From Crocinitomicaceae bacterium (lineage in GTDB: Bacteria; Bacteroidota; Bacteroidia; Flavobacteriales_D; Crocinitomicaceae): a DNA stretch of 55,355 nt. Shown piece by piece: positions 42,581 to 51,312 of the stretch. A program made the translations under genes and the position numbers. Position 1 is the first letter of the stretch. Each line of letters starts with the position of its first letter. The DNA is taken from NCBI GenBank assembly GCA_029252405.1, contig JAQXBM010000025.1, forward strand, positions 1-55,355, in the 5' to 3' direction. Below the pieces are notes generated by a model. That model saw only the letters and a program-made list of their open reading frames with translations, had not been told where the DNA came from and did not search any database.

Positions 42581-42695
42581 CTTATTACTAAGACGATTCA
42601 GTTTTCGATGAAGTTGGTTAATTCATATTTTGAATGTTTAAAATGTAGTTCTCATCGAGTAAACGATTATTTTTTTCGAAGAAATGGTTTTTCGA

Positions 42696-42703
42696 TATAT
42701 TTG
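42696..42703 (+). promoter_or_regulatory. -7 promoter element of the T9SS protein / TonB receptor module
   Basis: TATATTTG matches TAnnTTTG exactly. Transcription would begin near 42709-42710, about 16 bases before ATG 42726, which supports that start over the ATGs farther upstream. A T-rich stretch but no clear TTG lies at the -33 position. Confidence 0.6.
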
Positions 42704-42725
42704 TACTAACCCTAAAATGGTTTAT

Positions 42726-43877
42726 ATGAAGAGAATTTTACTTTTATCGTTATCAGCAGTGCTTGCGGGTAACGTTTCTGCTCAAGGACAAATCGGAAAT
42801 TCCGATATGGAAAACTGGGAAGTAGTTGCAGGAAATGATGAAGAACCAGTTAACTGGAACAGTTTCTTAACTGCTCAAGGTTCGTTAACACAATTTGCAG
42901 CTAATCAGATTATGGAAACGGGGAACGTTCGACCTGGATCTACAGGATCTAGCAGCGCTAGAATTTGGACTAGAGATGCAGGTTTCAACGTGAAAGCAAA
43001 CGGTAACATGACGTGTGGACGCATTAACATGGGATCAATTACACCATCTAACACAGACAACCATAACATCTCACTAACAGCAGATCCTTTGTTTTCAGAG
43101 GCATTGACGGATACACCTGACTCTATTGTTTTCTGGGTAGAATACAATGCAGGAAACGGTGGGAGTCAAGCGCGTATGAAAGCGACGCTTCACGATGACT
43201 TTGATTATACTGATCCTGAAACAGGAACATCAGCTGATCACATTATGGCAACTGCTGAATTGAATTATTCACCAACGAATAATGTGTGGGTAAGAATGTC
43301 TGTTCCTTTTGTTTACTCAGGACCAGCAACAACAAATACATTCATCTTGGTGACTTTTGCTTCTAACTCAACTCCAGGTGGAGGAGACGTAGATGACGAA
43401 GTGTTTATTGATGATATTGAATTGATCTACAATTCTACTGGAGGACCTACTGATACAGATGGCGATGGTGTAACGGATACTGATGAAGCAACCGATACGA
43501 CTGATCCAAACGATTTGTGTTCTTTCGTATTGGCTTCTCAAACGGTTGCTCCAAGTGCAACTTGGGAGTCTACTGATTGTGATTTTGACGGTGTTTCAAA
43601 CGGACAAGAGCTTATAAACGGTTCAGATCCTTTGGTTTCTGTTACCACACTTGATCCAAATCACTTCACAGTAGTGGTTGACAACGATCTTAATTTGATC
43701 AACGTTTCTTCTGATGCGAACTTGGATGGATCTTATGCGATTTTCAATGCAACTGGTCAAAGAATTCAAACTGGAGCATTGGCTCAGTCAATTGAGATTG
43801 ATTTAACTTCTGGGATCTATTACTTCCGAATTGCAACGGCAGATAGAACTTATACTTACAAGATTTACAAGAAGTAA
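42726..43877 (+). CDS. T9SS type A secreted protein (PCMD-like, TSP type 3 repeats)
   Basis: A 383-residue secreted protein starting MKRILLLSLSAVLAGNVSAQ; the longer frame begins inside the promoter. Residues about 20-236 resemble the putative carbohydrate-metabolism (PCMD) beta-sandwich (DMENWEVV, WTRDAGFNVKANGNMTCGRI, DSIVFWVEYN, EVFIDDIELIYN). Calcium-binding thrombospondin type 3 repeats follow (DTDGDGVTDTDEATD, CDFDGVSNGQELINGSDPL). A type A sorting domain closes the chain (SYAIFNATGQRIQTG, SGIYYFRIATADRTYTYKI), without the usual YPNP start. A terminator separates it from the TonB receptor. Confidence 0.85.
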   Translation: MKRILLLSLSAVLAGNVSAQGQIGNSDMENWEVVAGNDEEPVNWNSFLTAQGSLTQFAANQIMETGNVRPGSTGSSSARIWTRDAGFNVKANGNMTCGRINMGSITPSNTDNHNISLTADPLFSEALTDTPDSIVFWVEYNAGNGGSQARMKATLHDDFDYTDPETGTSADHIMATAELNYSPTNNVWVRMSVPFVYSGPATTNTFILVTFASNSTPGGGDVDDEVFIDDIELIYNSTGGPTDTDGDGVTDTDEATDTTDPNDLCSFVLASQTVAPSATWESTDCDFDGVSNGQELINGSDPLVSVTTLDPNHFTVVVDNDLNLINVSSDANLDGSYAIFNATGQRIQTGALAQSIEIDLTSGIYYFRIATADRTYTYKIYKK

Positions 43878-43894
43878 AATAATACTATTTTTAG

Positions 43895-43934
43895 AAGCTG
43901 ATTCTGTCCTGTTTTGGATGAATCAGCTTTTTTT
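43895..43934 (+). terminator. intrinsic terminator abutting the TonB receptor start
   Basis: AAGCTGATTC (43895-43904) pairs perfectly with GAATCAGCTT (43920-43929) around a 15-base loop; T fills 43928-43934. The next base is the A of an in-frame ATG (43935) of the receptor gene. Confidence 0.88.
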
Positions 43935-43940
43935 ATGCCT

Positions 43941-46346
43941 ATGAAGACAATACTACTGGTGCTTGTTGGATTACTTTGCTCATTTGAGCTTTGGAGTCAA
44001 ACTGAAGGAACGATTAATGGTTTTGTAAAGGATGACAAGGGAAATCCCATTATTGATGCAGCCGTAATCTATAAGAAGGACATTACTCGTGGGGCGCTTG
44101 CCGACGAAAATGGTTTTTATGAAATGACGGTTCCTGCAGGTGAAGCATTGCTCATTTGCCGATATTCAGGGATGCTTCCAGATACAGTCTCCGTAACGGT
44201 TATCGCCGGAGGAACGCTGAGCAAAGACATTGTTCTTATGCCCATAGTAACCGATATTGAAGGTGTTGACGTCAAGGTAGGTAAGTTCGATAAGCCCCTA
44301 GAAGATCAAACGGTTTCAATGGAGATTATTCGACCTGAATTAATCGAGAACAAGAATACACGAAGCATAGAAACAGCTTTGGATCAAACTCCAGGACTGA
44401 ACATTTTAGATGGAGAGCCTCAAATTCGAGGAGGAAGCGGATTCACCTTCGGTGTAGGATCGAAAGTAGCAGTCATCGTTGATGATATGCCTATGCTTTC
44501 TGGTGATGCAGGCCGGCCTGAGTGGGGATTTATTCCTGTAGAAAACATTCATCAAATTGAGGTGATTAAGGGAGCTTCTTCAGTGCTTTCAGGAAGCTCA
44601 GCTTTATCTGGAGCAATTCACATTCGTACAGCTTACCCAGGATTGAAACCAAAAACGAAAGTGAATGCGTACACTGGACTTTACTCAAAACCAAGTGTTG
44701 AAGGAGCAGATTGGTGGACAGGAACACCGTTAATTTCAGGAGCGAACTTCTTACATTCTAGAAGAGTTGGGAACTTAGATGTTGTTCTTGGAGCTAATGT
44801 AAATTACGATCACGGATATATCGGACCTCCAGTTACTGATTCTTTGGTTGAACCCGATACAATCTCCAATTTCAACGAACAACAAATGGCATCCAAGCGT
44901 GCCCGTTTTAATTTCAACCTTCGGTACAGAGCAAAGAAATTTAAAGGATTGAGCTATGGAGTGAATGGAAATATCATGGTCGCACAATCAAACTTGGCCT
45001 TTGCCTGGTTGAACGATTCTTCTGGATTGTACCAAGCGTATCCTGGAGCAGTTTTCCTTCAAAATCAATTCATTTTCAATGTTGATCCATTTTTAAACTT
45101 CTTGACGGAAACAGATGGGAAACACCATTTTAGAATGCGTTTGCTTCATTCAGACAACGAAATGACGGCCAATCAATCGAATCGATCAACAACAATGTAC
45201 GGTGATTACATGTTCAAGAAATCGTATACAAGTTTGAAAGGATTTGATTTCATCGGTGGATTGACAGGGACTTACACGAGTTCGTTCGCCAATTTGTATT
45301 CGGGAGGTGGGAGTCCAAACAATGATATTCTGAATATCTCTGCGTATTCTCAAATTGAAAAGAAGTTCCAAAAGATCATTAACCTTTCTGTTGGAGGAAG
45401 ATTGGAGTATTTCCAACTAAATGACACAATCACTGCGATTAAGCCAGTTTTCAGAGCAGGGACAAGCATCAAGTTGTACCAAGCGACTTTCCTTAGAGCC
45501 TCGTATGGTCAGGGATATCGTTTCCCCACAATTACCGAACGTTTCATTCGAACGGGAGTAGGAAATTTTGGTGTATTCCCAAATCCAGATGTATTGCCTG
45601 AGAGCAGTTGGAATGCCGAAGTAGGAATCAAACAAGGAATTAAGCTTGGGAAGATAATGGGGTATTTTGATGTGGCGGCCTTTTGGCAAGAATATGAAAA
45701 TACCATTGAGTACCTATTTGGTTTTTGGGGAGATCCTGCGGTTGATCCAAATCAGCTGTTCGGATTTAAATTCGTGAATACAGGAAACTCAAGAGTTCTC
45801 GGCTTGGACGTCTCTTTTTCTGGGAAAGCGAAGATTGGAGAAAATGTTGATATGACCTTCATGACAGGTTACAACTACATCGTTCCTAAAACATTGAACC
45901 CTGATTACATCTACGCTGTTGATGAGTTGGGAAGAGATTACAGTTACAATTCAACTTCTTTGGATTCGACGTCGCAGATTCTCAAGTACCGATTCTTGCA
46001 CAACGTCAAAGGTGACTTCGAATTTACGATCAAAAAGCGTTTTTCAATTGGTTTTAGCGTGAAGTACTTCAGTAAAATTGTCAACATGGACGGTGTTATT
46101 GAAGAGTTCGAAATTGCAACTGTCGGACCCTTTGTTCAAAACATTCGCTACTTGGATTATTTCGCAGATCACCGATTTGGAAATTGGATATTCGACGCTC
46201 GTGTGTCATATAAAATCAACGAATTTCACAAGATCGCATTGATTAGCGCGAATATCACGAATCGCTCTTACTCGCTGAGACCACTGAAAATAGAGGCTCC
46301 GCGCACCATCATGCTTCAATACACATACAAACTCGATCGCAATTAG
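43941..46346 (+). CDS. TonB-dependent receptor with carboxypeptidase-like N-terminal domain
   Basis: An 801-residue outer-membrane receptor starting MKTILLVLVGLLCSFELWSQ (the ATG two codons earlier, at 43935, is equally possible). A CarboxypepD_reg-like domain (GTINGFVKDDKGNPIIDAAV) is followed by a plug domain (SIETALDQTPGLNILDGEPQ, IEVIKGASSVLSGSSALSG) and a 22-strand barrel. It lacks SusC features and is the size of siderophore, vitamin or metal receptors; the ligand is unknown. It follows a T9SS-secreted protein across a terminator, as the BtuB-like receptor does. Confidence 0.92.
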   Translation: MKTILLVLVGLLCSFELWSQTEGTINGFVKDDKGNPIIDAAVIYKKDITRGALADENGFYEMTVPAGEALLICRYSGMLPDTVSVTVIAGGTLSKDIVLMPIVTDIEGVDVKVGKFDKPLEDQTVSMEIIRPELIENKNTRSIETALDQTPGLNILDGEPQIRGGSGFTFGVGSKVAVIVDDMPMLSGDAGRPEWGFIPVENIHQIEVIKGASSVLSGSSALSGAIHIRTAYPGLKPKTKVNAYTGLYSKPSVEGADWWTGTPLISGANFLHSRRVGNLDVVLGANVNYDHGYIGPPVTDSLVEPDTISNFNEQQMASKRARFNFNLRYRAKKFKGLSYGVNGNIMVAQSNLAFAWLNDSSGLYQAYPGAVFLQNQFIFNVDPFLNFLTETDGKHHFRMRLLHSDNEMTANQSNRSTTMYGDYMFKKSYTSLKGFDFIGGLTGTYTSSFANLYSGGGSPNNDILNISAYSQIEKKFQKIINLSVGGRLEYFQLNDTITAIKPVFRAGTSIKLYQATFLRASYGQGYRFPTITERFIRTGVGNFGVFPNPDVLPESSWNAEVGIKQGIKLGKIMGYFDVAAFWQEYENTIEYLFGFWGDPAVDPNQLFGFKFVNTGNSRVLGLDVSFSGKAKIGENVDMTFMTGYNYIVPKTLNPDYIYAVDELGRDYSYNSTSLDSTSQILKYRFLHNVKGDFEFTIKKRFSIGFSVKYFSKIVNMDGVIEEFEIATVGPFVQNIRYLDYFADHRFGNWIFDARVSYKINEFHKIALISANITNRSYSLRPLKIEAPRTIMLQYTYKLDRN

Positions 46347-46366
46347 GACTATTCGAAAAGTCCATG

Positions 46367-46374
46367 TATCTTTG
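46367..46374 (+). promoter_or_regulatory. -7 promoter element of the B12 operon
   Basis: TATCTTTG matches TAnnTTTG exactly. The expected transcription start, near 46380, coincides with the 5' edge of the cobalamin riboswitch (46381). No clear -33 TTG is seen. A weak GGACT/AGTCC hairpin (46346-46363) lies just upstream. Confidence 0.6.
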
Positions 46375-46380
46375 CCGCGA

Positions 46381-46560
46381 CTTCAGGTATTCGTTTTCGG
46401 ACGAGTTTAAAAAGGAATCTGGTGTGAATCCAGAACTGTATCTGCAGCTGTAAGCGTTCAACGCTGAAATTATTACGTCACTGATCGTTACTCAACGATT
46501 GGGAAGGCAATTTCAGTAAGGCGCGAGTCAGAATACTTGCCAAGGTCATTGTTATTGAAG
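46381..46560 (+). promoter_or_regulatory. cobalamin (AdoCbl) riboswitch
   Basis: The stretch carries the conserved cobalamin-riboswitch core: AAAAAGGAA at about 46409-46417, GGTGTGAATCC (46421-46431), GCAGCTGTAAG (46444-46454), GGGAAGGC (46501-46508) and the B12 box AGTCAGAATACTTGCC (46526-46541). Supporting pairings are CTTCA (46381-46385) with TGAAG (46556-46560), GTATTC (46387-46392) with GAATAC (46531-46536), AGCGT/ACGCT at 46453-46465 and ATCGTT/AACGAT at 46484-46499. No T-tract terminator follows before the ATG at 46660, so control is probably at translation of the downstream gene. The remaining 46561-46659 holds the presumed expression platform. Confidence 0.93.
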
Positions 46561-46659
46561 ACTTCAGATTAAAGTCCGATATAGGTAATGTGCTTTGGTA
46601 CATGTCTTTTCGAATTTCAACTGATCTTCTTCATTTTTTAATTATTTAATAATAGTATT

Positions 46660-47637
46660 ATGAAGAAAATCTACACCTTGGTAGCAGCGTTTGCAGTCGC
46701 TGGAACAATAACTGCGCAAACAACAATTGATTTTGAAAACCACCCACTTGCTGGTGCAGAAACGCACGACAATGGGAATGATGGTGTTGGATCATTTGAT
46801 TTTGGAGGAACTACTTTCGATTACAGTTACAATGCAGCTGGTGGTTACTTCAGTGGATTCGCGATTTCAAACGAAACGGATGTGACCACTCCGGGTTATG
46901 CAAATCAGTATAGTTCTTACACTGCGAGTGGAGCAGGTGGATCTTCAAACTTTGCAATTTTCTACGATTTTTCAAACGGAGGAATCAACACTAACGATGG
47001 TACGGTCAAAATTGATAGTTTCGAACTGACAAATACGACCTATGCATACCTTTCCATGAGAGATGGTGATGGTTTTGCGAAGCAATTCGGATCGATATAC
47101 GCTGGAGATGGAACTACCGAAGACGGAACAAATGGTGAGGACTTTTTCTTTTTGAGAATTTACGGACAGAACTTTGACGAAACTGAAATCGACTCTATGG
47201 ACTTCTACTTAGCAGATTACCGCTTCGCTGATAGTACACAAGATTACATCATTGATGATTGGAATACAATCGATTTGACAGGATTCTCGTTTGACGTCGC
47301 GTCAGTCAGATTTAGCTTTGGATCATCCGATATGAGCGGTATTTATATCAATACACCAGCCTACATCGCGATCGACAATGTTTCAACGCAAACTGTTGGA
47401 GGATTAAAGCCTCAATTAGCTGATAACTATGAAATGTACCCGAATCCAGTTCAAGATGTATTGACGATTAACGGAGGTCGCGGTGAAGTTCGAATTACGA
47501 ACGCTTTTGGTCAAGTTATTCTTACGCAAACACACGATGAAATCAGTGATATTGATGTTCGAGATTTTGCTTCTGGTGTGTATTTCGTCACATTGATTGA
47601 CGATACTGGAATTCGTACAAAACAGCTCATTAAATAA
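46660..47637 (+). CDS. BtuH-like DUF4465 protein with T9SS type A sorting domain
   Basis: A 325-residue secreted protein: signal peptide (MKKIYTLVAAFAVAGTITAQ), DUF4465 domain (about 21-245; DYSYNAAGGYFSGFAISNET, GYANQYSSYT, TTYAYLSMRDGDGFAKQFG, DFYLADYRF, YIAIDNV) and a C-terminal sorting domain (YEMYPNPVQDVLTING to the terminal TKQLIK). DUF4465 proteins include the surface B12-binding BtuH group of Bacteroides. The riboswitch directly upstream and the BtuB/BtuG-like genes downstream support cobalamin binding. Known BtuH proteins are lipoproteins; this one should instead be anchored or released through T9SS. Confidence 0.88.
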   Translation: MKKIYTLVAAFAVAGTITAQTTIDFENHPLAGAETHDNGNDGVGSFDFGGTTFDYSYNAAGGYFSGFAISNETDVTTPGYANQYSSYTASGAGGSSNFAIFYDFSNGGINTNDGTVKIDSFELTNTTYAYLSMRDGDGFAKQFGSIYAGDGTTEDGTNGEDFFFLRIYGQNFDETEIDSMDFYLADYRFADSTQDYIIDDWNTIDLTGFSFDVASVRFSFGSSDMSGIYINTPAYIAIDNVSTQTVGGLKPQLADNYEMYPNPVQDVLTINGGRGEVRITNAFGQVILTQTHDEISDIDVRDFASGVYFVTLIDDTGIRTKQLIK

Positions 47638-47645
47638 TATGGAAT

Positions 47646-47671
47646 AAAGGATGTTTCGGCATCCTTTTTTT
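47646..47671 (+). terminator. internal terminator hairpin abutting btuB
   Basis: AAAGGATG (47646-47653) pairs with CATCCTTT (47660-47667) across a TTTCGG loop, and T runs from 47665 to 47671. The next base is the A of the btuB ATG. It lies 8 bp after the btuH-like stop, inside the B12 operon, and could attenuate receptor expression. Confidence 0.85.
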
Positions 47672-49696
47672 ATGCGCTCAATTCTTCTCATATCGATTTT
47701 ATCCTGCTCTTGGTCTTTTGGTCAAGATACGACGACTAGAAAAACTGTTGAAGCACCGCTTCTTGAGCTACGAGCCGTTGAGGTGATCGATGTTATTGAC
47801 ATTCGGCGCATCGTTCCAAGGTATTCAATTCTCACGACACAGCAAATTCAAGAAATGCAGGCCGACGACGTCGGTGATATCATGCAGAAGATTCAAGGCG
47901 TAAATTTGAAGTCTTATGGTGGTTTAGGTGGATTGAAAACGATCTCCGTTCGTAGCCTTGGAAGTCAGCATTCTGCCATTTCAGTGGATGGTTTTGCCCT
48001 GCAGAATAGTCAAACTGGGCAAGTGAATCTGGCACAACTTCAAACGAATAACATTGAATACATCTCAACAGGAGTGGGGGAGTACGCTGGATATCTTATT
48101 CCAGTATCATCTCAAATTGCGGGAAATAATGTTGCCGTACAGACTTTCGAGATGAGTAGATTGCCTTATGGCGATAGTCTTCAAGTAAGAGTGAACATGC
48201 GACTTGGATCTTTCGGACAAATCAGCGGGTACGCTTCGGCGAAGGTGAAAATCAAAAAAGGGTTTGTGAGCGGTTTTGGGAATTATCGAACAGCGAATGG
48301 ATTGTACCCCTATGAAATCGCTAATGGTACTAACACCGAAGCATTCGTTCGTGACAATAACGATTATCAAGATCACTATTATGGCGGAGTTGCGGGCTAC
48401 GAGTTCAAGAATAACAACCAAGTTCGCATACGTTATAGAGGTTCGAAAATCGATCAAGGGCTTCCAGGGGCAGTCATTTTGTATAACAACACCGCTGATG
48501 AACGGCTTGCAACTAATGATCAATTATTGACAGCTGATTACAGATTCCAAATAGGCGATAATTTAAGATTACGTGCTTATACAAATGGGAATATTAACTC
48601 GATGCGTTATCTAGACCCGACGTATTTCAACAATGCAGGTGAGGTTGATGTGACGTATCTGAATCGAAATTTAAACACCGGACTCGTTGCTGAAGGCCTC
48701 ATTGAAAAAGACGGTAAACCCAGGTACGGCAGGGCTTACTATTTTGGAGCAGAAAGCGGGTTGAGTGACTTACAAAGTTCAGACAGTACCTTCTCGAATC
48801 CTTTACGTCAACAAGTTTCCGCTATTGTCGGAACGAGATTAGATTTCGGGAAGATCAAAATCAGAGGTCATGTTTCTGGACAGTACGTCAACGAATCGAA
48901 TAATGATGACACTGGAGGAAAGGACGTAATCGCGGTGAACCCATATCTTTCGTTGGAATCGAAAGAGTCACGACGATACTATGGACGACATCGCGTTTGG
49001 TACCGTAATTCGCTACGTGTGCCAACGTTCAATGAATTGTATTACAACAATATCGGCAACAACGAACTCAATCCTGAGCGAGCGAATCAATTTGGATACA
49101 ATTTCGCAATTATTCCACTGGATCGACCAGGAAGACTGGTTACCATTAAAGCAGCGGGATATTTTAACCGTATTACCGACAAGATTGTGGCAATCCCGAC
49201 ACAAAACTTGTTCACCTGGTCTATTCAGAATGTGGGCATTGTCAATGCATTTGGTGGGGAAGTGAGCGCGGATGTGCGTTTGGCTTTAGGAAAAAATAGA
49301 AAATTGATCCTCGCGTCAATGGCCAATTATTCTTTCCAAAGGTCTATTGACATGACAGATCGGAATCATCCAACTTACAAACATCAAATTGCATACATCC
49401 CCATGCATACAGGAAATTTCGACATTTCGTTGACCTATAAAAAAGCAGGAGGAAAAGTCAGTAATTATCTGATTTCGAAGCGATATTCACTCAACCAAAA
49501 TATACCGACCAATGAAATTGATGGCTTCGCTATTACAGATTTCAGTTTGTTCTATAATTTTGAATTCAATCAGAAGCAGACTTTGCGCGTTCAATGTCAA
49601 GTAAAAAATGCATTCAACAGATCGTATTCGTATATTCGTTCTTTCATAATGCCGGGTAGAAATTATTTAATATCAATCAATTATGCGTTTAATTAG
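47672..49696 (+). CDS. btuB: TonB-dependent receptor, probable cobalamin transporter BtuB
   Basis: A 674-residue outer-membrane receptor starting MRSILLISILSCSWSFGQ; the longer frame begins inside the terminator hairpin. A short N-terminal extension leads to a plug domain (ADDVGDIMQKIQGVNLKSYG, ISVRSLGSQHSAISVDGFAL, IEYISTGVGEYAG) and a barrel that ends in YLISINYAFN with a terminal aromatic-rich strand. Its place behind a B12 riboswitch, between DUF4465 and BtuG-like genes, makes cobalamin the likely ligand. The inner-membrane BtuCDF transporter is not in the window. It overlaps the following gene by 14 bp. Confidence 0.88.
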   Translation: MRSILLISILSCSWSFGQDTTTRKTVEAPLLELRAVEVIDVIDIRRIVPRYSILTTQQIQEMQADDVGDIMQKIQGVNLKSYGGLGGLKTISVRSLGSQHSAISVDGFALQNSQTGQVNLAQLQTNNIEYISTGVGEYAGYLIPVSSQIAGNNVAVQTFEMSRLPYGDSLQVRVNMRLGSFGQISGYASAKVKIKKGFVSGFGNYRTANGLYPYEIANGTNTEAFVRDNNDYQDHYYGGVAGYEFKNNNQVRIRYRGSKIDQGLPGAVILYNNTADERLATNDQLLTADYRFQIGDNLRLRAYTNGNINSMRYLDPTYFNNAGEVDVTYLNRNLNTGLVAEGLIEKDGKPRYGRAYYFGAESGLSDLQSSDSTFSNPLRQQVSAIVGTRLDFGKIKIRGHVSGQYVNESNNDDTGGKDVIAVNPYLSLESKESRRYYGRHRVWYRNSLRVPTFNELYYNNIGNNELNPERANQFGYNFAIIPLDRPGRLVTIKAAGYFNRITDKIVAIPTQNLFTWSIQNVGIVNAFGGEVSADVRLALGKNRKLILASMANYSFQRSIDMTDRNHPTYKHQIAYIPMHTGNFDISLTYKKAGGKVSNYLISKRYSLNQNIPTNEIDGFAITDFSLFYNFEFNQKQTLRVQCQVKNAFNRSYSYIRSFIMPGRNYLISINYAFN

Positions 49697-50738
49697 TGCT
49701 CTAATCTTGCTCTCATTGGTATTCGTCTCTTGTAAAAAGGACGACCCAACAGTTGAGGATAATATTCCTCTGAATAATGGAATGATGGTGCTGTGCGAAG
49801 GTTTGTATCAACAGAACAATTCCTCGCTTTCTTTTGTGAACTTCAACAGTAATCAAACGATCGACAATTTTTTCTTGTCCACTTCTGATCGAGCTTTGGG
49901 GGATACTGGTAACGATATTAAGCGCTATGGAGGAAAGGTGTACGCAATCATCAATGGATCAAGCACGGTTGAAGTGATTTCCGGAATTACGGGTATTTCT
50001 ATCAAGCAAATCCCAATGGTGGAAGGCGGAGTGGCTAAACAACCGCGCTCAGTAACGTTTTATGAAGACAAGATTCTCGTTTCATGTCACGATGGATTTG
50101 TGGATGTCATTGATACGACCTCTTTGGAAGTCGAGCAACGCATTCAAGTAGGAAGCAATCCTGAAGGGCTGGCGGTATCGAACGATATGCTGTTTGTCGC
50201 GAATTCTGGAGGTTTGAATTTCCCGAACTACGATTCTACGGTTTCTGTAATTAATCTATCTACATTCACGGAGGAATTGAAAATAACAGTGGGAATCAAT
50301 CCAGTTGGGGTCGAGGTCGACGCGGAAGGTGATATTTACGTCATCACAAGAGGAGATTTTGGCACAACCCCATCTCGATTGAATAAGATAAATCCAACTT
50401 CATATTCTGTTACCCAATTCGGATTTAACGCATCGAGTATTACGCCAATGTCAGATAATTTCTTCTTAATAGGATACGCTGATCTCAGTACTGGAGACAA
50501 TCAGGTTGGGTTATTTAACACTTCTGGAGATGTATTGACCAATCCGACATACATTGATATGAGTGCGATCCAAACTTTGTATGGAATCACTTATCACCCC
50601 GGATTAAATAAGATATTTATTTCAGACGCGAAGGATTTCGTTACAACGGGAGATGTATTTGAATTTAGTGGAAATGGAATTTTTGAGAATAGTTATCAAG
50701 TAGGATTGAATCCTTCAAAAGTTGTTTTCTATGACTGA
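49683..50738 (+). CDS. btuG: BtuG-like YncE-type beta-propeller lipoprotein
   Basis: A 351-residue lipoprotein with signal MRLISALILLSLVFVSCKKD (lipobox VSC, Cys17). Its repeats (VYAIINGSSTVEVIS, ILVSCHDGFVDVIDTTSLE, NPEGLAVSNDMLFVANSGG, STVSVINLSTFT, NPVGVEVDAEGDIYVITRG, KIFISDAKD) form a seven-bladed propeller like BtuG, the surface protein that captures B12 with very high affinity and lids BtuB in Bacteroides. Position after btuB with a 14-bp overlap, under the riboswitch, supports this. Other YncE/DUF5074 proteins look similar, so identity rests on context. Confidence 0.85.
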   Translation: MRLISALILLSLVFVSCKKDDPTVEDNIPLNNGMMVLCEGLYQQNNSSLSFVNFNSNQTIDNFFLSTSDRALGDTGNDIKRYGGKVYAIINGSSTVEVISGITGISIKQIPMVEGGVAKQPRSVTFYEDKILVSCHDGFVDVIDTTSLEVEQRIQVGSNPEGLAVSNDMLFVANSGGLNFPNYDSTVSVINLSTFTEELKITVGINPVGVEVDAEGDIYVITRGDFGTTPSRLNKINPTSYSVTQFGFNASSITPMSDNFFLIGYADLSTGDNQVGLFNTSGDVLTNPTYIDMSAIQTLYGITYHPGLNKIFISDAKDFVTTGDVFEFSGNGIFENSYQVGLNPSKVVFYD

Positions 50739-51312
50739 TTTTTTGTCCGATGAATTTTGGAACAATCGATACGTGGATGGAAACACGGGTTGGGATTTGG
50801 GAGAAATTTCTCCACCGATCAAGGCTTACGTTGATCAATTAGAAAATAAGGAGTTGAAAATTTTGATTCCGGGCGCAGGAAATGGGCACGAGGTTTCTTA
50901 CTTATTTGATCAAGGATTTAGAAATGTTCACGTTCTCGATTTTGCTCCATTGGCGATGCAAACTTTTTTAGAAAGAAATCCAGAATTCCCAACTTCTCAA
51001 GCTCACACAGCGAATTTTTTTGATTTTGAGGGAGCTTTTGATTTGATCATTGAGCAAACGCTATTTTGTGCGATAGATCCATGTTTACGTTCAAGCTATG
51101 CCGAGCAATCAGCGTCTTTACTTCGTAATGGAGGGAAATTAGTTGGAGTTTTATTCAATAGAGAATTTGACGGTGGTCCACCATTTGGAGGATCAAAATC
51201 AGATTATGTCGATCAATTCAAGCCGTTCTTTTCAGAAGTATCAATGGAAGAATGTTACAATTCAATTGGGCCAAGACAAGGAAACGAATTATTCATTCGA
51301 TTGACGAAATAA
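50731..51312 (+). CDS. SAM-dependent methyltransferase, TPMT family
   Basis: A 193-residue methyltransferase. It has the thiopurine-methyltransferase-like opening FWNNRYVDGNTGWDLGEISP, the SAM-binding motif ILIPGAGNGHEVSYL (about 45-59), VLDFAPLAM and the EQTLFCAIDP segment. The ATG at 50731 is preferred to a TTG three codons earlier; it overlaps the btuG-like gene by 8 bp, so it is probably translated from the B12-regulated message. The substrate is unknown; this family methylates thiols, halides and metalloids. Its stop abuts that of the convergent gene with no spacer. Confidence 0.88.
   Translation: MTDFLSDEFWNNRYVDGNTGWDLGEISPPIKAYVDQLENKELKILIPGAGNGHEVSYLFDQGFRNVHVLDFAPLAMQTFLERNPEFPTSQAHTANFFDFEGAFDLIIEQTLFCAIDPCLRSSYAEQSASLLRNGGKLVGVLFNREFDGGPPFGGSKSDYVDQFKPFFSEVSMEECYNSIGPRQGNELFIRLTK

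Follow-up and report, generated by a model that had tools for sequence, protein, structure and literature searches.

The window (the whole 55,355-nucleotide stretch of DNA analysed here) carries, with a probability of about 0.8, a vitamin B12 scavenging locus of a Fluviicola relative in which a riboswitch controls a BtuJ-type capture protein exported by the type IX secretion system (T9SS). The novelty lies in the secretion tag, the B12-binding family itself being already known. The riboswitch, the protein domains, the fold, the B12-site residues, a sortase gene and a conserved gene order were computed, and the following features were located.

46367..46558, + strand: cobalamin riboswitch aptamer (Rfam RF00174, model positions 1-189)
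46367..46374, + strand: TATCTTTG, -7-like promoter element coinciding with the start of the Rfam match
46560..46576, + strand: hairpin GACTTCAGATTAAAGTC, immediately 3' of the aptamer
46660..47637, + strand: BtuJ-type (DUF4465) capture protein of 325 aa, ending in a T9SS tail
46660..46719, + strand: signal peptide of the capture protein, SPI type by eye from the translation, no cysteine
47434..47634, + strand: T9SS type A C-terminal sorting domain (residues 259-325)
47646..47667, + strand: intrinsic terminator-like hairpin and T run between the capture gene and btuB (stem search)
47672..49696, + strand: btuB, TonB-dependent B12 transporter (ORF listed from 47651)
49683..50738, + strand: btuG, beta-propeller surface lipoprotein, overlapping the 3' end of btuB
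50731..51312, + strand: TPMT-like methyltransferase gene (from ATG), overlapping the btuG stop

The first-pass annotation had placed a full cobalamin riboswitch ahead of the DUF4465 gene, and the search of the leader with the Rfam cobalamin model bore this out (97.2 bits, gathering score 31.5). This is the sole cobalamin riboswitch found in the whole genome, and a riboswitch likewise lies upstream of the DUF4465 gene in all 59 of 59 other loci of the window's family. We take TATCTTTG to be similar to the Bacteroidetes -7 promoter consensus TAnnTTTG; its positions T5, T6 and G8 are conserved at 90% or more among 27 aligned riboswitches, and no -33 element was evident upstream of it. Within the expression platform, the hairpin GACTTCAGATTAAAGTC is presumably P13, which carries the kissing loop. 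Its motif was present in 53 of the 104 leaders examined, 95-147 nt ahead of the start codon, and several of the remaining 51 (12 of which were inspected) carry GCTTTCGGGATAAAAGC-type stems at the equivalent place. A model in which the 5' strand of P1 recurs in the leader to form an alternative helix was rejected, since the longest shared word averaged 6.41 in 41 loci versus 6.35 in mispaired loci. The window leader folded alone did no better than shuffles (z -1.11). Scarcity of B12 would permit expression through this riboswitch. The BtuJ operons of B. thetaiotaomicron are also mostly under cobalamin riboswitches, according to PMC12751083.

The earlier assignment of the capture protein to DUF4465 was supported by a PF14717 score of 150.7 bits (cut-off 25 bits). 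Its structural model (pLDDT 92.6) was matched by Foldseek to 9hmu, 9qpm, 9fct and 9i2l with TMt values of 0.62-0.79, the E values being 1.4e-15 for D5EK51-B12 (9hmu) and 2.8e-14 for BtuJ1 (9fct). The name BtuH, under which the protein had first been described, was wrong: DUF4465 chains and, over the tail, other chains were matched, whereas 8blw_B, the BtuG-BtuH fusion chain in the same library, was absent among the matches with E up to 1. BtuH of B. thetaiotaomicron (BT_1488, BT_1956) is likewise a B12-binding accessory protein from a similar kind of locus; however, it is encoded by separate genes and belongs to another family than the window protein, the IPR027828 (DUF4465) proteins BtuJ1 and BtuJ2 being BT_1491 and BT_1957 (PMC12751083). 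BtuJ1 and BtuJ2 (PDB 9FCT, 9I2L) resemble the window protein in fold, in five B12-site residues and in having operons with btuB and btuG, but they are predicted lipoproteins, whereas the window protein has no lipobox and ends in a T9SS type A tail. Eight viral stretches fitted a pattern for relatives of the capture protein, and none was confirmed.

The BtuB and BtuG members of the formerly proposed BtuH-BtuB-BtuG set were upheld, while the place of BtuH is taken by the BtuJ-type protein. The TonB receptor was identified as BtuB, with B. theta BtuB1 as its nearest solved relative (8blw_A, E 1.5e-68), at 72.5 bits (E 2.7e-20) against NCBIfam TIGR01779, under the cut-off of 599.7. Its start is more likely ATG 47672, opening the signal-peptide-like MRSILLISIL, than 47651, because the latter falls within the terminator-like stem 47646-47667. 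Similarly, the propeller lipoprotein was recognized as BtuG (8blw_B, E 1.7e-60; PF16819, 38.3 bits), and its N-terminus LVFVSCKKDD contains the lipobox cysteine (FVSC, residues 14-17). The two chains of the BtuB1 complex (PDB 8BLW) are thus the nearest solved relatives of both proteins, but the match to 8blw_B stops at residue 375 of 663, so that the window BtuG is without the extra C-terminal part, which is the BtuH part according to the BtuGH fusion account (PMC12751083). Since the TPMT-like gene (PF05724, 82.7 bits) overlaps the btuG stop, the unit probably extends beyond 50738, and both genes are likely to share a transcript; this gene was found downstream in 12/12 other loci of the genus (5.5 kb flank) and in 16/56 of the family. 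The upstream TonB receptor (43914-46346), which ends 20 nt ahead of the riboswitch, was considered as a member of the unit and rejected; its best scores were to haem-type receptors, none of them over the cut-off.

The case for export rests on both ends of the capture protein. Because its N-terminus MKKIYTLVAAFAVAGTITAQ contains no cysteine (residues 1-25), it is without a lipobox; at least 90% of the 92 proteins aligned share residue Q20 of the signal peptide. At the C-terminus, the sorting domain noted in the first-pass annotation in place of a lipobox was confirmed (TIGR04183, 48.4 bits, cut-off 23 bits; Por_Secre_tail PF18962, 45.6 bits), and Foldseek matched this part to the CTDs of mirolase (8qb1, rmsd 1.6) and NucA (8glk). 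The genome encodes a PorU sortase (NF033707, 1221.8 bits), as expected for type A cargo, like the Sec-type signal judged by eye and the TIGR04183 domain. It also holds at least 150 TIGR04183 places, the capture protein included (150/282 candidates scored). The protein would pass the inner membrane via Sec and the outer membrane via T9SS, guided by the type A CTD, which PorU would then cut off. Type A cargo is often LPS-attached after PorU cleavage, and the predicted fate outside is to be held by LPS, carried on vesicles or released. No account of T9SS export of the DUF4465 family was found in the literature, and neither T9SS nor type IX occurs in the body text of PMC13398666, PMC12751083 or PMC8941943.

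The capture gene is followed by the terminator-like hairpin, which may lead to its product being made in excess. Seven terminator-like sites were counted in the 5.1 kb region versus 3.7 +/- 1.7 in shuffles, and equivalents of the hairpin with changed stems occur in the nearest relatives G276, G236 and G244. Among the 63 loci of the family, 9, counting that of the window, had a terminator between the capture gene and btuB, versus 40 of 1260 shuffles; near the btuB/btuG junction there was one in 0 of 60 by the same criteria. With 9/63 loci, a family-wide rule was rejected, and the terminator is at most a trait that the window shares with its closest relatives and certain other loci.

Haemophores are exported capture proteins that supply a TonB-dependent receptor. 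The window protein is likewise predicted to be exported and to serve such a receptor, but its ligand and fold are different. A free B12 carrier of this kind (a 'vitaminophore') shared among cells, instead of a surface-bound partner of BtuG, would be consistent with the missing lipobox, the type A tail and excess production ahead of a terminator. B. theta BtuJ lipoproteins are enriched on vesicles, and of the vesicles tested there, only those with BtuJ1 or BtuJ2 delivered B12 to cells (PMC12751083). However, the frequent retention of type A cargo on LPS speaks against free carriage, and the sequence decides neither release nor attachment; we consider this alternative unlikely. The wider proposal that Flavobacteria release a soluble T9SS-secreted B12 binder in excess, often with a second T9SS-tailed partner, and that other phyla use a PEP-CTERM tag, so that one capture domain is re-tagged according to the surface export system of the host, is put forward only tentatively and is itself rather doubtful.

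The reading of an exported BtuJ-type protein that captures B12 itself is supported by the binding site. Residues Y97, Y146, N241, T242 and Y245 of BtuJ1, common to BtuJ1 and BtuJ2 (PMC12751083, where the Asn pair is printed as Asn291/Asn241; position 241 of the 9fct chain is Asn), are identical to Y80, Y128, N231, T232 and Y235 of the capture protein, and the NTPAY-type HI loop is present as INTPAY. By contrast, BtuJ1 Trp78, a lower-ligand contact, has no clear counterpart and aligns with G61 by hand count. This unlike lower-ligand side of the pocket, along with the variability of the lower-ligand loops in the family (PMC13398666), would be compatible with a preference for another corrinoid or tetrapyrrole under a riboswitch that still senses cobalamin. 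Such a preference is improbable given the five identical residues and the binding of cobalamin by eight diverse DUF4465 members, one of them from Fluviicola taffensis (PMC13398666, published in 2026). B12 binding has been published for these relatives and is predicted for the capture protein.

Outside the cell, the exported protein would bind a cobamide and may deliver it to BtuG, the lid of BtuB. TonB-dependent import through BtuB would then supply MetH and methylmalonyl-CoA mutase, B12-dependent enzymes whose genes (MetH-type in the former case) are present in the window genome. CbiC, the single marker family used for corrin synthesis, gave no match there. Later uptake is tentatively assigned to a lipoprotein and FecCD pair at C86, for which no solved relative was found and another ligand is conceivable.

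The T9SS-tailed form is the usual DUF4465 form in the order and not a rare one: the 95 frames surveyed comprised 88 tailed proteins, 4 lipoproteins and 3 cut or broken frames. TIGR04183 was found in 92/92 proteins picked for a long C-terminal tail and in 0/9 tail-less proteins with a lipobox cysteine; these counts omit G135 and G108 (cut at contig ends), G270 C11 (broken frame), G373 and G310 (long frames, matched only weakly and in part) and G604 (below cut-off). Of the 72 genomes with the tailed form in the PorU test, 71 had PorU over the cut-off, G208 being the exception; the test covered 80 of 102 genomes, the 22 dropped all having a completeness of 93 or less. At family loci with sufficient flank, btuB lay 3' of the DUF4465 gene in 60/60 other cases and btuG in 58/58. 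DUF4465 members other than lipoproteins were termed periplasmic in the 2026 paper (PMC13398666), but a periplasmic protein whose CTD is no working sorting signal is very improbable here in view of the TIGR04183 domain in all 92 tailed members, its structural match to solved T9SS CTDs, the sortase in nearly all tailed genomes tested and the many TIGR04183 places in the window genome.

Export by T9SS, as preferred here, can be related to a protein with a B12-binding assay. The DUF4465 protein Fluta (F2I9N3) of F. taffensis bound B12 in vitro (PMC13398666); since the construct was recombinant and signal-truncated, it carries no information on export, on which, as regards T9SS, that paper is silent. 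The genome that we take to be F. taffensis, in the window's family, contains a single DUF4465 frame, with the same T9SS tail, riboswitch, btuB and btuG, and F2I9N3 was equated with it via this single copy and not via sequence. Localisation and cross-feeding could be tested directly in cultured F. taffensis. B12 is traded and contested in most communities, and the DUF4465 capture proteins described in the literature found are lipid-anchored or presumed periplasmic. As a lineage rule, the T9SS-tagged form suggests that B12 capture may extend past the membrane, and it alters the annotation of the non-lipoprotein part of the family.

Loss of T9SS was rejected as the cause of the lipoprotein forms in genus g14 of the window's family, as all four such genomes retain PorU; the presence of T9SS does not, therefore, impose the tailed form. 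A possible swap of anchors was examined with trees. In a quick tree of 156 domains, the four g14 lipoprotein members, flagged for deviating letter composition, were nested among tailed ones (SH-aLRT 95). In a more careful analysis, a 61-row tree from which the two longest lipoprotein rows had been omitted, the lipoprotein rows came out as one group in 0% of 200 bootstrap trees, although the AU test did not reject a single lipoprotein clade (p 0.391). A lipoprotein form may have been acquired by transfer.

A second T9SS-tailed protein of B12 loci, protein K, gave no useful match in the fold search apart from its T9SS tail. K and DUF4465 lie within one frame in six records, and the four fused frames in which K comes first are all under Planctomycetes names.

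The window locus is, soundly in our judgement, a conserved form of a B12 capture system that is already known, the form itself being unreported as far as we searched. Its features, beginning with the riboswitch, are as follows:
46367-46558, cobalamin riboswitch (RF00174, 97.2 bits, full length)
46560-46576, conserved hairpin after the aptamer
46660-47637, DUF4465 gene downstream of the riboswitch (DUF4465 domain, 150.7 bits)
47646-47667, terminator-like hairpin immediately behind the capture gene
50731-51312, TPMT-like methyltransferase gene, overlapping the btuG stop

The full cobalamin riboswitch that the first-pass annotation had placed ahead of the operon was thus recovered by the covariance model, and the search of the 4.28 Mb genome yielded no further one. 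A riboswitch lies upstream of the DUF4465 gene in all 59 loci of the window's family having 400 nt upstream (29 identified via Rfam listing or pattern, 30 via Rfam scans) and in 28 of 30 loci of the order's other families, where genomes G023 and G036 showed none within 1.5 kb upstream. One motif of the post-aptamer hairpin covers 53/104 leaders, and other families show different stems; the hairpin in the window probably forms the kissing loop of this riboswitch.

The search for a DUF4465 domain in the first protein, as had been proposed, was positive, and the name BtuH given to it was ruled out, since the accessible part of PMC12751083 gives the names BtuJ1 and BtuJ2 to the DUF4465 proteins of B. 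theta and uses BtuH for a separate gene pair. TIGR04183, the model for the T9SS type A sorting domain, hits the last 67 residues of the window protein at 48.4 bits (cut-off 23), and the signal peptide contains no cysteine, confirming a T9SS tail in place of a lipobox. In the AlphaFold model (pLDDT 92.6), domain 1 structurally matches D5EK51-B12 (9hmu), BtuJ1 (9qpm, 9fct) and BtuJ2 (9i2l), whose fold it is predicted to share, and domain 2 matches the solved T9SS tails of mirolase (8qb1), NucA (8glk, E 0.008) and RgpB (7pq4, E 0.011). The same accessible text, where the asparagine pair seems to be printed in swapped order, describes BtuJ1 Y97, Y146, N241, T242 and Y245 as hydrogen-bonding or tyrosine-halo residues common to BtuJ2. 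They align with window Y80, Y128, N231, T232 and Y235, all five identical, whereas Trp78 of BtuJ1 has no clear counterpart. Of 92 aligned tailed proteins, the window's included (alignment A1), 84 have Tyr at position 128; at position 235, 81 have Tyr and 11 have Phe.

DUF4465 is present in 95/299 genomes of the order and, in a phylum sample, in 11/395 (nine above cut-off). A census of 95 frames from 94 order genomes, excluding the window's, revealed a tail of at least 75 residues in 88 (two of them cut at the 5' end), the remainder being four lipoproteins, all from one genus (g14), two frames cut by contig ends and one broken frame. TIGR04183 matched all 92 tailed proteins (88 from the order, three class-level and the window's) and none of nine members that lack the tail and have a lipobox cysteine. 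The T9SS sortase PorU was above cut-off in 71 of the 72 tailed genomes tested and in 5/8 lipoprotein-type genomes, all four g14 genomes among them.

From a genome-contig scan with at least 539 relatives, the best 80 were considered, a set that overlaps the survey and favours sequences close to the window's. Of these, 56 were grouped as Bacteroidota, one of them a record titled Glaciecola that we took as G130 of the window's family, and TIGR04183 matched 55; the sole miss is probably L214, whose frame ends within the tail. L216, whose frame runs off the contig, was left out of the tail scans. For the remaining 23, whose titles name other phyla in 20 cases and just an uncultured bacterium in three, no TIGR04183 match was listed; the PEP-CTERM protein family NF038120 matched 13, the general PEP-CTERM domain TIGR02595 nine (E <=0.01), the Pfam PEP-CTERM motif ten and a dockerin model three. 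From these matches, the DUF4465 domain occurs with three kinds of surface tag. Records from Cyanobacteria, Planctomycetes and beta-proteobacteria (L183, L188, L191, L196, L204, L219 and others) encode DUF4465 proteins ending in PEP-CTERM-like tails, and L124 (3656-5287, +) encodes a 544-residue protein with two tandem DUF4465 domains and one T9SS tail.

The binding function of the family is already published: the accessible part of PMC13398666 reports eight B12-binding DUF4465 proteins, one from Fluviicola taffensis, and describes the family as >70% predicted lipoproteins, the rest having periplasmic targeting signals. The terms T9SS, type IX and sorting do not occur in its main text, nor do T9SS and type IX in the accessible part of PMC8941943; PMC12578637, as far as accessible, names T9SS in other connections. 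No title or abstract opening listed for the accessible literature on DUF4465 and on T9SS with cobalamin or BtuB described T9SS export of such capture proteins, and no paper was found linking PEP-CTERM with cobalamin and BtuB. The genome taken as F. taffensis, which belongs to the window's family, has one DUF4465 match, a 315-residue protein in A1 and hence TIGR04183-positive; the published F. taffensis B12-binding protein is therefore very probably T9SS-tailed.

The assignment of the TonB receptor and propeller to BtuB and BtuG held, their nearest solved relatives being the B. theta BtuB1 chain of 8BLW (E 1.5e-68) and its propeller partner chain (E 1.7e-60). Across the 62 other loci of the window's family, btuB follows in the same orientation, no more than 3 kb away, in 60/60 with 1.5 kb downstream, and btuG follows in 58/58 with 3 kb; in the order's other families, relatives of the window BtuB and BtuG occur in 12/28 and 14/26 loci, respectively. 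The TPMT-like gene is downstream in all 12 other genus loci with enough flank. Terminator-like sites in the region number seven, vs 3.7 +/- 1.7 in shuffles. Hairpins equivalent to that behind the capture gene, with other stem sequences, are present in the three nearest relatives (G276, G236, G244), and a terminator-like hairpin occurs in 9/63 family loci, hence is no family-wide rule. We propose that low B12 would lead to expression of the unit, the hairpin yielding more capture protein than transporter, and that the capture protein would be exported by Sec and then T9SS, bind B12 outside the cell and pass it to BtuG and BtuB for import.

Among the best 80 of at least 539 relatives, the closest records that bear a name are MAGs of Flavobacteriales and Fluviicola, with 79% identity across the domain. 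The host genome contains PorU, at least 150 T9SS-tail places listed from 282 candidates, and MetH-type, methylmalonyl-CoA mutase and MeaB-mutase fusion-type genes. It gave no match to CbiC in a search positive in 7/14 control genomes, so the host probably cannot make the corrin ring. A T9SS-tailed protein with a TSP3 repeat (42684-43877) is encoded upstream of a haem-type TonB receptor (43914-46346).

A second T9SS-tailed protein, here named protein K, has about 240 residues plus the tail and an uncharacterised main domain, for which Pfam gave no match; sequence searches brought up no solved relative and fold searches none that was convincing. Two examples are:
L070:11262-12224, + strand, protein K
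L238:1273-2235, - strand, protein K of the window genome, T9SS tail 51 bits

Relatives of K were found in 115/186 DUF4465 loci searched (some duplicates) and in 47/56 family loci with 5.5 kb downstream; in the window genome, K is unlinked from the B12 locus. Six records carry K and DUF4465 in one frame, K first in L198, L199, L216 and L224, all titled Planctomycetes, and DUF4465 first in L180 and L197. TIGR04183 matched 55/59 K members and the LIC_13355 lipoprotein family six; in some other phyla, K proteins have, by eye, PEP-CTERM-like tails.
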